Source of the DNA: Acidobacteriota bacterium
GTDB taxonomy: Bacteria > Acidobacteriota > Terriglobia > Terriglobales > Acidobacteriaceae
Direction: 5' to 3'
DNA: 64,000 nucleotides
Assembly: GCA_021792135.1 (NCBI GenBank)
Contig: JAJYVF010000031.1
Coordinates: 1-64,000 of the forward strand
In this document: positions 8,414-51,517 of the stretch, piece by piece
Position numbering within the stretch: position 1 is the first letter of the stretch
How the letters are laid out: the number at the start of each line of letters is the position of its first letter
Position numbers and translations under genes: made by a program
Notes under the pieces: generated by a model
Seen by the model: the letters and a program-made list of their open reading frames with translations, nothing else
Databases searched by the model: none
What the model was told of the DNA's origin: nothing

Positions 8414-8436
8414 CCGGGTTGCAGTGCCCTCGCGGC

Positions 8437-8470
8437 GCAGTGGAGCTTCGGCTCCACTGCGCTTTTTGTT
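8437..8470 (+). terminator. Rho-independent terminator with TTCG loop
   Basis: A perfect 10-bp stem (8437-8446 with 8451-8460) closes on the very stable TTCG tetraloop. Two more flanking pairs extend it, and TTTTTGTT follows. It lies 24 bases after the TonB receptor stop. Confidence 0.85.
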
Positions 8471-37295: not shown

Positions 37296-37316
37296 CTGTG
37301 CGGGACGGCGCATAAG

Positions 37317-37425
37317 AGCCTGTGGCAGAAATCGAAAGTTCGTAAAATGCGTGTCTCGGGGGCTGAAGCCCCATCGATCTTGCGGACCTTTTGGCACGGC
37401 TAAAGCCGTGCCCTTTCAAGAGGAG
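37317..37425. repeat. MITE-like repeat, copy 1
   Basis: The sequence starts AGCCTGTGGCAGA and shares with 49058-49181 the ordered blocks TCGAAAGTTCGTAAAA, GGCTGAAGCCCCA, TTGCGG and a strong hairpin. Hairpins are GGGGC-TGAA-GCCCC (37359-37372) and GGCACGGC-TAAA-GCCGTGCC (37393-37412). The right terminal repeat seen in copy 2 is missing here, so this copy is truncated. Confidence 0.75.
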
Positions 37426-47871: not shown

Positions 47872-49056
47872 ATGAGCACCATGTATGCGAGATGTGAGAG
47901 CAAGCTGGATGAGTTTCGCGTGGAAATTCCCTCGTGGGGCTTCGCCAACACCGGAACGCGCTTCGGGAAATTCGCGCAGCCGGGAGCGGCAACGAGTCTG
48001 GAGGAGAAGTTTGCCGATGCGGCGGAGGTGCATGCTCTGACGGGCGTGACGCCGCAACTGGCGCTGCATGTGCTGTGGGATCTGCCGGGTGGACGCGCGG
48101 ATGTGGCGGGGGTGAAACAGCTGACGGAGCGCTACGGGATCCAGGCGGGCTCGATCAATCCCAATCTGTTTCAGAACCAGGAGTACAAGTTTGGTTCGCT
48201 GTGCAATCCGGATGCCGGTATTCGGCGGATGGCGCTCGACCACCTGCTGGGGTGCGCGGATATCGCGAAAGATCTGAGTTCGGCGGATGTTTCGCTGTGG
48301 CTGGCGGACGGATCGAATTATCCGGGAACGCAGAGCATTCGCAAACGGATCGTGTGGCTGGAGGAGGCGCTGGGCGCGACGCACGACCGGCTGAGCGCGG
48401 GGCAGAGACTGCTGGTGGAGTACAAGCCCTTCGAACCGGCGTTCTATCACACGGATATTGCCGACTGGGGGATGGCCGGGCATCTGGCCCAAAGCGCGGG
48501 GCCGCAGGCGCGGGTGCTGGTGGATACGGGCCATCATTATCAGGCGCAGAACATCGAGCAGATTGTGGCGTGGCTGCTGCACCTGCGGCTGCTGGGCGGT
48601 TTCCATTTCAACGACCGGCGCTACGCCGATGACGATCTCACCATTGGATCGATCGATCCGTACCAGGTCTTCCGGATCTTCCATGAGATCTTCAACGAAG
48701 AGGACGAATCCCTGGTAGCCGGCATCGCCTACATGATCGACCAGAGCCACAACATCAAGGGCAAGGTGGAAGCGATGGTGCAGACGGTGGTGACCGCGCA
48801 GGAGCTGTTTTTCAAAGCCGGACTGGTCGATCGGGAACGGCTGGCGGAATTGCAGGCAGCCGGCAGGACGGTGGAGGCGGAAGAATGCCTCCGGGACGCC
48901 TTCTGGACCGATGTGCGCCCCGCTCTGGAAGAATGGAGGGTGAGGCGGGGTCTGCCGCCGAATCCGCTGACCGCGCTGCACGAGAGCGGATATGTGGAAC
49001 GTATCGAAAGGGAGCGGGCCGAGCGGAACGCGGTTCGCACCAGCACCTATGCATAG
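47872..49056 (+). CDS. rhaI: L-rhamnose isomerase, RhaI type
   Basis: The 394-residue TIM-barrel isomerase is of the Pseudomonas stutzeri/Rhizobium type, distinct from E. coli RhaA. Motifs include LALHVLWDLPGG, GSINPNLFQ, VEYKPFEPAFYHTD, VLVDTGHHYQAQNIEQIVA and GGFHFNDRRYADDDL, which carry the metal-binding Glu, Asp and His residues. It converts L-rhamnose to L-rhamnulose. ATG 47872 has AGGAG six bases upstream. A repeat element begins one base after its stop. Confidence 0.92.
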   Translation: MSTMYARCESKLDEFRVEIPSWGFANTGTRFGKFAQPGAATSLEEKFADAAEVHALTGVTPQLALHVLWDLPGGRADVAGVKQLTERYGIQAGSINPNLFQNQEYKFGSLCNPDAGIRRMALDHLLGCADIAKDLSSADVSLWLADGSNYPGTQSIRKRIVWLEEALGATHDRLSAGQRLLVEYKPFEPAFYHTDIADWGMAGHLAQSAGPQARVLVDTGHHYQAQNIEQIVAWLLHLRLLGGFHFNDRRYADDDLTIGSIDPYQVFRIFHEIFNEEDESLVAGIAYMIDQSHNIKGKVEAMVQTVVTAQELFFKAGLVDRERLAELQAAGRTVEAEECLRDAFWTDVRPALEEWRVRRGLPPNPLTALHESGYVERIERERAERNAVRTSTYA

Positions 49057-49057
49057 G

Positions 49058-49181
49058 AGCCTGTGGCAGAGGTCGAAAGTTCGTAAAATACGTCCCCGAG
49101 GGCTGAAGCCCCATTGATTTTGCGGCGTTCGTGGCACGACTAAAGTCGTGCCCTTTCAAAACACGACCTTTACCACAGGCT
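49058..49181. repeat. MITE-like repeat, copy 2 with terminal inverted repeats
   Basis: AGCCTGTGG (49058-49066) at the left end is matched by CCACAGGCT (49173-49181) at the right, giving 9-bp perfect terminal inverted repeats on a 124-base element. Inside, GGCACGAC-TAAA-GTCGTGCC (49133-49152) is a perfect hairpin. Compared with copy 1, one stem pair has changed on both sides (G-C to A-T). It lies between rhaI and rhaD. Confidence 0.78.
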
Positions 49182-49297
49182 GCTGGAGATCCCGTCGTGA
49201 GCCGGCCCGCGCGCGGTTGGGAATGCGGGGAGGCGGCTCCTTCGGGGATGATCGGGATTGCCACGGGCCGGCGCCGGCCGGCCAGAAATGAGGAGTT

Positions 49298-51517
49298 ATG
49301 TCTGCAACGGTCGTTCATTCAGGAAAGCTGTCTCATCTGGAAGATCGCTGGGACGATAACGTGGCCCGGGGCATGGACGAGCCGGAACTGCTGCGCTATC
49401 GCTCCAATCTGCTGGGTTCGGATCTGCGCATTACGAACTTCGGCGGCGGGAACACGAGTTCGAAGATCGAGATGACCGATCCGCTGACGCGCGGCAGGGT
49501 GGAAGTGCTGTGGGTGAAAGGAAGCGGCGGCGATCTGGGGAGTATCAGGCGTTCGGGATTTGCCACGCTCTACCTGGATAAGCTGCGCGCGCTCGAATCG
49601 CTCTACGGCGGCGCGGAGCGCGAGGATGAGATGGTGGGCTACTATCCGCTGTGCACGTTTGGGCTGAACCCCGTGGCGGCCTCCATTGATACGCCGCTGC
49701 ATGGGTTTCTGCCCTTCGCGCATGTCGACCACCTGCACCCGGACTGCGGAATCGCGCTGGCCGCGGCGGCGAACGGGCGCGACAAAATGGAGGAGTTCAA
49801 CCGGGCCTGGGGTCATAAGCTGGTATGGCTGCCGTGGCAGCGGCCGGGCTTCGAACTGGCCATGATGCTGCGGAAGGCGGTCGCGGCGGCTCCGGACTGC
49901 GACGGCGTTGTGCTGGGCGGGCACGGATTGTTCACGTGGGGGCAGACGCAGCGGGACTGCTACCTGAACACCATCACCATCATCGATCACCTGACCAGCT
50001 TCATTGAGGAGCACCTGGGGAAGAAGGGCGGGCGCGTCTTTGGGGGGCGGAAGTGCGAGCCGCTGGCCAACAGGAGAGATATTGCGCTGGAGATCATGCC
50101 GTATCTGCGGGGGCGGGTGGCGGAGCAGAAGCGGCTGATCGGGACATACACCGACGCGGAGGATGTGCTGGAGCTGGTCTGCTCGGCGCAGGCGGAGAAG
50201 CTCGCGTATCTGGGCACGAGCTGCCCGGACCACTTTGTGCGGACCAAGATTCGGCCGATGTATGTGCCGTGGGATCCGGCGAGCGGCACGAGCGGGCTGC
50301 GAAAGCAGATCGCGGAACGGATTGCCACCTACCGCGAAGAGTATGCGGAGTATTACAGGAAATTTGTGGAGCCGGGTTCGCCGGCGATGCGCGATCCGAA
50401 TCCGACGGTGGTTCTGATTCCGGGGATCGGAATGTTCAGCTTCGGCAGGAACAAGCCGGAATCACGGGTGACGGGCGAGTTCTACGTCAATGCTATCCAC
50501 GTGATGAAGGGAGCGGGCGCGCTGGAGAATGGAGCCGTTGCATCGCGCGTGCCGCAGTGCGGGTCGGACGCGCTGGCGCAGGCTTTTGAGGTGTACAGCA
50601 ACTATGTGGCGCTGCCCGCGGCCGAGGCATTTCGCATCGAGTACTGGGCGCTGGAGGAAGCCAAGCTGCGCCGCCAGCCGGCGGAGAAGGAGCTGAGCCG
50701 ACAGATTGCGCTGGTGGTCGGCGGAGGCAGCGGGATTGGCCGCGAGGTGGCGCTGCTGGCCGCAGAACGCGGGGCGCATGTGGTGGTGGCGGACCGCGAT
50801 CATGCGAGCGCGGTGAAGGTCGCGGAGGAGCTGAAGCCGCTGGCGGGCAAAGAAGGAGCCGTCGCCCTGCCGGTGGATATCCGCAGCCGGGACTCCATTC
50901 GCGAGGCGGTGCGGCTGACAGTGGAACAGTTTGGCGGACTGGATATGCTGATCAATACGGCCGCGCTGTTTCCTTCTTCGCCGACCGGTGTGATCTCCGA
51001 TGCGCAGTGGGCGCTGACGCTGGAGGTGAACGTCACGGCGAATTTCCTGCTGGTGGAGGAGATTGGGAAGCTTCTTCGCGAACAGGGGCTGACGGGCAGC
51101 ATCGTGCTGACCAGTTCGGCCAACGCGGTGGTGCCGAAGCGCGGATCGGAAGCCTATGACGTGAGCAAAGCGGCCCTGAGTCACCTGATCCGCGAGCTGG
51201 CTGTTTCCCAGGCGCCCAAGGTGCGGGTGAACGGGATCAGTCCGGCGACGGTGGTGAAGGGTTCGACGATGTTTCCGCGGGACCGGGTGATGGCTTCGCT
51301 GCGCAAGTACGGCATCGCTTCCGAGGAGACGATGAGCGATGAAGATCTGCGGTCGCGGCTTGCGGCGTTCTACGCGGAGCGCACGCTGACGCATCAGCCG
51401 ATCGACCCGCGGACCTGCGCGGAGGCGATCCTCTTCCTTGCCGGACCGAAGGCGCCATGCACGACGGGACATTTGATTCCTGTGGATGGCGGGCTGACCG
51501 AGGCATTCCTGCGGTAG
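49298..51517 (+). CDS. rhaD: Bifunctional rhamnulose-1-phosphate aldolase/lactaldehyde (SDR) dehydrogenase
   Basis: The 739-residue fusion has a class II aldolase part (about 20-440). The metal-binding His residues are in HGFLPFAHVDHLHPD and LGGHGLFTWG. It is followed by a short-chain dehydrogenase (about 465-739) with VGGGSGIGRE, TSSANA and the catalytic YDVSK. The first half splits L-rhamnulose 1-phosphate into DHAP and L-lactaldehyde, and the second would oxidise the lactaldehyde. This fusion is known from Rhizobium and other bacteria. rhaB follows after 15 bases. Confidence 0.9.
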   Translation: MSATVVHSGKLSHLEDRWDDNVARGMDEPELLRYRSNLLGSDLRITNFGGGNTSSKIEMTDPLTRGRVEVLWVKGSGGDLGSIRRSGFATLYLDKLRALESLYGGAEREDEMVGYYPLCTFGLNPVAASIDTPLHGFLPFAHVDHLHPDCGIALAAAANGRDKMEEFNRAWGHKLVWLPWQRPGFELAMMLRKAVAAAPDCDGVVLGGHGLFTWGQTQRDCYLNTITIIDHLTSFIEEHLGKKGGRVFGGRKCEPLANRRDIALEIMPYLRGRVAEQKRLIGTYTDAEDVLELVCSAQAEKLAYLGTSCPDHFVRTKIRPMYVPWDPASGTSGLRKQIAERIATYREEYAEYYRKFVEPGSPAMRDPNPTVVLIPGIGMFSFGRNKPESRVTGEFYVNAIHVMKGAGALENGAVASRVPQCGSDALAQAFEVYSNYVALPAAEAFRIEYWALEEAKLRRQPAEKELSRQIALVVGGGSGIGREVALLAAERGAHVVVADRDHASAVKVAEELKPLAGKEGAVALPVDIRSRDSIREAVRLTVEQFGGLDMLINTAALFPSSPTGVISDAQWALTLEVNVTANFLLVEEIGKLLREQGLTGSIVLTSSANAVVPKRGSEAYDVSKAALSHLIRELAVSQAPKVRVNGISPATVVKGSTMFPRDRVMASLRKYGIASEETMSDEDLRSRLAAFYAERTLTHQPIDPRTCAEAILFLAGPKAPCTTGHLIPVDGGLTEAFLR

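Follow-up and report, generated by a model that had tools for sequence, protein, structure and literature searches.

Results

Two copies of a short repeat

The analysed stretch of DNA, termed the window here, comprises 64,000 nucleotides and corresponds to positions 1-64000 of contig C48 in a 5.1 Mb draft genome of 77 contigs (the host), which belongs to the family Acidobacteriaceae. It holds two copies of a short repeat at 37316-37422 (copy 1) and 49057-49182 (copy 2), in agreement with the positions proposed for both in a first-pass annotation. Copy 1 has a carboxypeptidase-regulatory-like gene on one side and a cupin gene on the other. A sugar-isomerase-like gene (AP_endonuc_2) has its stop codon at 49054-49056, and copy 2 adjoins it without a gap; downstream follows a gene for a 739-aa fusion of a class II aldolase domain and a short-chain dehydrogenase (49298-51517), which together with the isomerase-like gene presumably serves the use of rhamnose. 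Elsewhere in the window, a perfect 12-bp stem with a TTCG loop (8435-8462) is stronger than the hairpins of either copy.

The features of both copies are given below, where R1 denotes a covariance model of the two-hairpin core (70 positions, 13 pairs) built from 70 cores; the underlying alignment A1 uses 70 of 76 full-length cores, six having been left out by hand.

37316-37334, plus strand: left terminal inverted repeat of copy 1, GAGCCTGTGGCAGAAATCG, one mismatch to GAGCCTGTGGCANAAGTCG
37353-37422, plus strand: two-hairpin core of copy 1 (R1, 77.5 bits, E = 1.3e-21)
37359-37372, plus strand: hairpin 1 of copy 1, GGGGCTGAAGCCCC (sequence)
37393-37412, plus strand: hairpin 2 of copy 1, GGCACGGC-TAAA-GCCGTGCC (sequence)
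49057-49182, plus strand: whole element of copy 2, 126 bp (sequence, blastn, end search, shorter interval in relatives)
49057-49075, plus strand: left terminal inverted repeat of copy 2 (end search)
49093-49162, plus strand: two-hairpin core of copy 2 (R1, 81.8 bits, E = 4.7e-23)
49100-49111, plus strand: hairpin 1 of copy 2, GGGCTGAAGCCC (sequence)
49133-49152, plus strand: hairpin 2 of copy 2, GGCACGAC-TAAA-GTCGTGCC (sequence)
49164-49182, minus strand: right terminal inverted repeat of copy 2, inward CAGCCTGTGGTAAAGGTCG (end search)

Aligned without gaps, the copies agree to 91% over 43 bases and to 84% over 63 bases. The blocks they were said to have in common indeed keep their order, with nearly equal offsets (11,741 and 11,740), and hairpin 2 shows the described TAAA loop in both copies together with a matching change on both arms. 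Chance likeness is ruled out, as copy 2 retrieves copy 1 from the whole genome at E = 6.7e-26 (blastn). The annotated extent was right in placing copy 2 but too short, missing the right inverted repeat at 49164-49182; the two ends of this copy are near-identical (GAGCCTGTGGCAGAGGTCG at 49057 and CAGCCTGTGGTAAAGGTCG inward from 49182). Copy 1 has no right end, its sequence leaving the family after TTTCAA. The two hairpins are accompanied by another stem, CGTAAAAT/ATTTTGCG, the third and not as well kept. None of 200 dinucleotide shuffles folds as well as one strand of copy 2, with z values of -5.5 (DNA) and of -6.8 and -6.6 (RNA of the two strands).

The repeat family of the host

Copy 2 finds 34 matches in the 5.1 Mb host genome at E ≤ 1 (blastn), and R1 finds 50 core matches at E ≤ 0.01. 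Among 52 host core instances, taken from HMM matches, at least one family end (GAGCCTGTGG-like, 9-nt anchor, at most two mismatches, at the expected place) is present in 24, both ends in 12 and neither in 28. The composite of core and ends is the commonest well-kept form among the host's best blastn matches. Being 126 bp long, non-coding and bounded by terminal inverted repeats, copy 2 has the make-up of an IS5-type MITE.

Identical 4-bp flanks were found in 4 of 18 host copies paired automatically via the 9-nt anchor, some anchors being poor, compared to 0.78 by re-pairing (P = 0.0033). These are TTAA at L176, TCAG at L151 and ATAA at both L027 and L159, and the flank consensus is YTAR-like; the flank of L165 (CTAA) matches only after a one-base shift. 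With stricter 17-nt anchors, two of ten target pairs are identical (P = 0.11). The flanks of copy 2 itself are unlike (ATAG/CTGG). The interval between its neighbouring genes measures 241 bp in the host, or 115 bp minus the element, and 122 bp and 120 bp in the two nearest relatives, the same-genus genomes G001 and G003, where flank identity is 73-76% and the exact junction not alignable. Across the 12 genomes with both flanking genes on one locus, the core model detected no core in this interval.

For the family, inverted repeats, YTAR-like targets, a repeat-free interval in relatives and the lack of room for a gene thus bear out the earlier label 'MITE-like'. A transposase with the family's own ends, which the annotation had proposed to look for, was not found among the candidates examined (see below). 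Inverted repeats, YTAR-like targets and solitary host cores with decayed pairing are also what an ordinary IS5-derived MITE would offer, whose palindromes play no role of their own in transposition, whose endless cores are old copies and whose cores beside RAYT genes (described below) reflect chance or hot spots. We consider this reading unlikely, among other things as the interior is better kept here than the ends, the reverse of a usual MITE.

In two host copies, C58:121554-121648 (L306) and C41:56188-56278 (L027), a palindrome-like insert (CCCTTCGACTTTGCTCAGGGCAAGCTGTCGAAG and a relative) interrupts hairpin 2, which looks like the insertion of one repeat into another.

Pairing and covariation

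Following the suggestion of the first-pass annotation, genome copies were collected and a covariance model was built, and the compensatory change proved to be real and recurrent in the 70 cores. Standard pairs make up 91.1% of their cells. Two-sided changes affect 9 of 13 pairs and 36 cells, compared to 10.7 ± 2.4 in shuffles and at most 6 in slid controls, scores of a kind that relatedness inflates. At the pair highlighted originally, A-U occurs in 41 cores, G-C in 18, G-U in three and C-G in one, and seven are unpaired. Even without selection, matching changes can be produced by template switching from one arm of a palindrome to the other.

Stem changes were counted in the host group alone, because many of the other loci had been fetched by a pattern demanding perfect stems and are biased in this respect. 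The 39 distinct full-length host cores comprise 498 cells, of which 432 are Watson-Crick (including 20 two-sided changes) and 66 are not (16 G-T, 24 A-C, 26 other). The earlier inference of selection on pairing, whether of a DNA hairpin or of RNA, went further than two copies allow: in the host, 66 non-Watson-Crick cells stand against 20 two-sided ones, and unpaired stem changes in further copies were precisely what had been named as speaking against it. Since the family covaries while host copies carry these 66 cells, pairing is kept between spreading lineages and lost after insertion. RNAalifold recovered hairpin 2 from 15 host copies, and neither hairpin 1 nor the outer inverted repeats. 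Counted on a preset structure rather than on the RNAalifold output, the end stem is paired to 78.9% and the third stem to 78.3% in the same 15 copies, a weaker support than for the hairpins.

Could the repeat instead be an RNA structure that spread, be it a terminator, a small RNA or a stabiliser of mRNA, with its pairing selected in transcripts? The strong fold of both strands and the covariation are compatible with this, as is the location of copies 1 and 2, both just 3' of a same-strand gene. However, there is no pointer to the RNA strand, because G-T does not exceed A-C among the one-sided changes; Rfam 15 gives no match at gathering score in the window; no U-run stands behind hairpin 2; and 38 host instances show no orientation preference on rough gene calls (9 co-oriented, 6 anti-oriented, 4 flanked by divergent genes and 2 by convergent ones, 7 within ORFs as called, and 10 that allowed no call). 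An RNA element thus appears very improbable to us.

The core as a separate module

When copy 2 is used as blastn query in relatives, alignments mostly cover query positions 46-108, that is, the two hairpins, and every one of the 25 genomes searched within the family yields 15 or more cores with R1 (counts above about 120 per genome being lower bounds). The two internal hairpins are therefore a module separate from these ends. In a sister family of the same order, one or two weak cores occur in 5 of 14 genomes; a single genome from a third family has 99 R1 matches, and R1 found no core in a fourth family. A strict pattern run on 84,980 species genomes yielded at least 114 stretches, and all matches listed come from Acidobacteria or members of the phylum. 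Both hairpins have CAGG and a CTRAAG centre in common, while their stems differ. In a bog MAG, three composite units are arranged in a tandem array with 144-bp steps (L209, 7242-7600).

Association with RAYT genes

Genes of the Y1_Tnp type (PF01797) are present in 22 of 25 relatives. We examined 30 Y1 loci, 24 of which are covered by the tree; L091, L093, L104, L105, L107 and L112, in which the transposase frame was not picked, were left out, and weak core matches were seen at L105 (one) and L112 (three). In one RAYT clade, 12 of the 13 loci have R1 cores, compared to 1 of the 11 other tree loci (Fisher P = 9e-5), a count not independent of these loci because R1 was partly trained on their cores. 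An HMM seeded without any RAYT locus places cores at 10 of the 30 Y1 loci. The clade is composed as follows:

RAYT clade A: loci L096, L097, L099, L100, L114, L117, L118
RAYT clade B: loci L101, L102, L103, L113, L115
Also in the 13-locus clade: L106

Locus L100 has no core match and a run of N beside the gene, and at L111, the one core-bearing locus among the 11 others, the core is more than 900 bases away from the gene. Eight clade A and B proteins were checked and all pass NF047646, the model of REP-associated tyrosine transposases, which L116 and the RAYT of the host itself (clade C) pass as well. Beside the RAYT gene of L114, four cores form a tandem array with 117-bp steps (2009-2429).

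Several of these observations are difficult to reconcile with an ordinary MITE. The loci of the RAYT clade carry 28 core matches with scores of 24.2 bits or higher within 38.7 kb, where the density in the same genomes would predict 0.64, an expectation slightly low as two of the genome counts are lower bounds; cores are thus about 40 times denser there. They are often inverted on both sides of the RAYT gene (L096, L097, L106), and sub-clade B owns a related core with another hairpin 2, CCACGGCCTGAAGGCCGTGG.

The single Y1 gene of the host (L031) is a RAYT of another clade (C), and no core was found within the 2.5 kb examined around it. Hence, the core has no cognate RAYT partner in the host assembly, from which that gene has been lost or in which it was never present. 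Around L031, the only RAYT gene in the host, lies a different palindromic repeat (GGGTGGGGCACCC, GGGTGGGCCACCC; contig C23, about 290-420 and 1060-1210 of L031), and a relative's locus L071 shows a similar repeat in alternation with the core. A plasmid collection contained no match to core DNA or to a clade A RAYT.

The same core within other ends

The flanks of non-host cores were compared as inverted repeats in 151 cleaned of 288 cores, an uncleaned first test having contained tandem artefacts. Scores of at least 13 were reached by 27 of the 151 compared to 1.9 by re-pairing, and scores of at least 16 by 13 compared to 0.6. The following end types were assigned to loci:

AGCCTGTGGCAAAAGTC: L266, L209
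CCTCTGATTAAGTC: L183, L068
GGTTGCATAAATGG: L207, L210, L258, L290
TGTTTCAAAAAT: L196
AGCTTGCGGAAA: L132, L226
GTGGGTCAGTTTG: L227
GAGCCACTTGCAAAATTCA: L182

Five end types place their anchors 33-37 bases to the left and 15-21 bases to the right of the core, namely AGCCTGTGGCA, CCTCTGATTAAGTC, GGTTGCATAAATGG, TGTTTCAAAAAT and, apart from L279 and L194, AGCTTGCGGAAA. This geometry is broken by GCTGCGGAAAAA (44-48 left, 18-39 right), GTGGGTCAGTTTG and GCTTGTTGAAA. Conserved geometry across end types would also be expected from the common descent of one ordinary MITE. Flanking 4-bp repeats, with the offset freely chosen, are TTAG at L183, TTAA at L068, CTAG at L210 and TTAC at L209.

Autonomous IS5-family elements are present for two sister end types. 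A host element (L335/L365) has GGAACCTCTGATCAAG ends with TTAG on both sides, and G005 and G011 contain elements with GGAACTTGTTGAAAT ends (L342, L351), all of these being above the NF033581 cut-off; the latter type pairs with the element in G013 (L062/L135). The proposed search for a transposase with matching ends was successful for these sister ends, then, and unsuccessful for those of copies 1 and 2: no insertion sequence bearing them was found in the 77-contig host assembly, whose DDE matches were examined in part. With two mismatches allowed, the TIR pattern has two matches in 24 relatives, no more than its reversed control. A 17-nt TIR pattern with one mismatch matches in 5 of 150 family genomes; a core adjoins in the host, G078 and G109 and a decayed core in G140, and the matches L308 and L313 are inside coding sequence.

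Two host genes were considered as partners and rejected. The IS5-like gene on contig C6 adjoins a truncated element copy (L013/L360) but has no matching right end, and its 3' side resembles the ends of L316, so it was taken as an independent insertion; this transposase gene is broken (C6:32998-33930, L360) and lies about 150 bases behind the truncated copy. The IS5_3 gene on contig C38 (L361) has AGAGGCTGTTATTAAC ends, of which only the first bases are common with those of copies 1 and 2.

Alternatively, palindrome and ends together might represent the 'TIR' repeats of RAYT-like genes ('TIRYT'), the outer inverted repeats then being made by the RAYT without any DDE transposase. TIRs, some of them 'double palindromic', are described on both sides of RAYT-like genes in four acidobacteria in the accessible part of PMC3733652, which also mentions composites of degenerate REPs and unrelated stem-loops in Pseudomonas. 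We nevertheless regard this as improbable: the 4-bp target sites of the outer ends are YTAR-like, two end types have matching partners in the IS5 family, and cores at RAYT loci are mostly without outer inverted repeats, flagged cases there being tandem artefacts.

Discussion

We consider it probable that an IS5-type MITE and a REPIN-like double palindrome are joined in this repeat, which would make it a composite miniature transposon of Acidobacteriaceae. On the outside, a DDE transposase supplied in trans would act on the short inverted repeats and duplicate a YTAR-like target of 4 bp; the ends, the targets and the shorter intervals in relatives are why we think of the IS5 type. The inside would be a REPIN-like double palindrome, on which a clade of RAYTs (HUH tyrosine enzymes) presumably acts when its hairpins are single-stranded DNA; the association with RAYT genes assigns the core to another system than the ends. 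Accordingly worded for the window, copy 2 would be a complete composite that inserted right behind the stop codon of the sugar-isomerase-like gene, and copy 1 a composite that probably lost its right end. We infer from these sequences the transposase that moved copies 1 and 2, the action of a RAYT on the core and mobility itself. Following this argumentation, we propose that the hairpins covary because spreading lineages needed them as DNA, and that resident copies decay afterwards. The unlike flanks of copy 2, the end types that break the geometry and the lack of an insertion sequence with the family's own ends among those examined speak against the composite, as do the result with 17-nt anchors (P = 0.11), the host RAYT of another clade with no core nearby, the missing GTAG tag and the unlike stems of the two hairpins.

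Near-fixed geometry combined with varying ends suggests one fusion, after which the ends may have diverged or been swapped; the alternative would be independent captures. More speculatively, and with rather less confidence than in the composite as such, we consider that the RAYT-type double palindrome might be a conserved cargo of changing IS5-type ends, in a lineage served by several DDE transposases and a RAYT. If so, the element would outlive the loss of one transposase, such as the cognate RAYT absent from the host, by switching to another. REPINs and MITEs are usually separate classes with unrelated chemistries (HUH tyrosine and DDE, respectively), and here the inside would come from one and the ends from the other. 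From a family with a constant inside and changing ends one would learn by what route short non-autonomous DNA persists beyond its transposase, and the many sequenced Acidobacteriaceae offer a ready comparative test. No case of a REP or REPIN located within a MITE of IS5 type appeared in the literature listings searched.

How does the element compare with known systems? REPINs and BIMEs with their RAYT (TnpA-REP) genes are described in PMC3116915 and PMC2817692. Like these, the core is a short double palindrome with many copies and tandem arrays, resides beside RAYT genes of one clade and occurs as orphan copies in genomes without the cognate RAYT. In contrast to them, its hairpins are preceded by CAGG or relatives instead of a GTAG (GTRG) tag, the two hairpins do not appear to be a single REP repeated in inverted form, and many copies are enclosed by IS5-type inverted repeats. 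Closer in taxonomy are the TIRYT/TIRtron systems, in which, according to the accessible text of PMC3733652, non-GTAG repeats bracket RAYT-like genes in Terriglobus, Koribacter, Acidobacterium and Granulicella. The likeness (non-GTAG, some double palindromic) is one of description, and that text, as far as available, does not mention IS5-type ends. Class 3 TnpA-Y1 repeats, as portrayed in the available part of PMC6006769, likewise occur in Acidobacteria in high copy number (about 600 in Solibacter usitatus) and with atypical hairpins; their foot is given there as CnGA, whereas CAGG precedes the hairpins here and the RAYTs pass NF047646. With IS5-family MITEs, finally, the element shares a size of about 126 bp, near-perfect inverted repeats of 18-19 bp, YTAR-like targets and related end types that match IS5_4 elements, but differs from them in that its interior is a conserved RAYT-type module.
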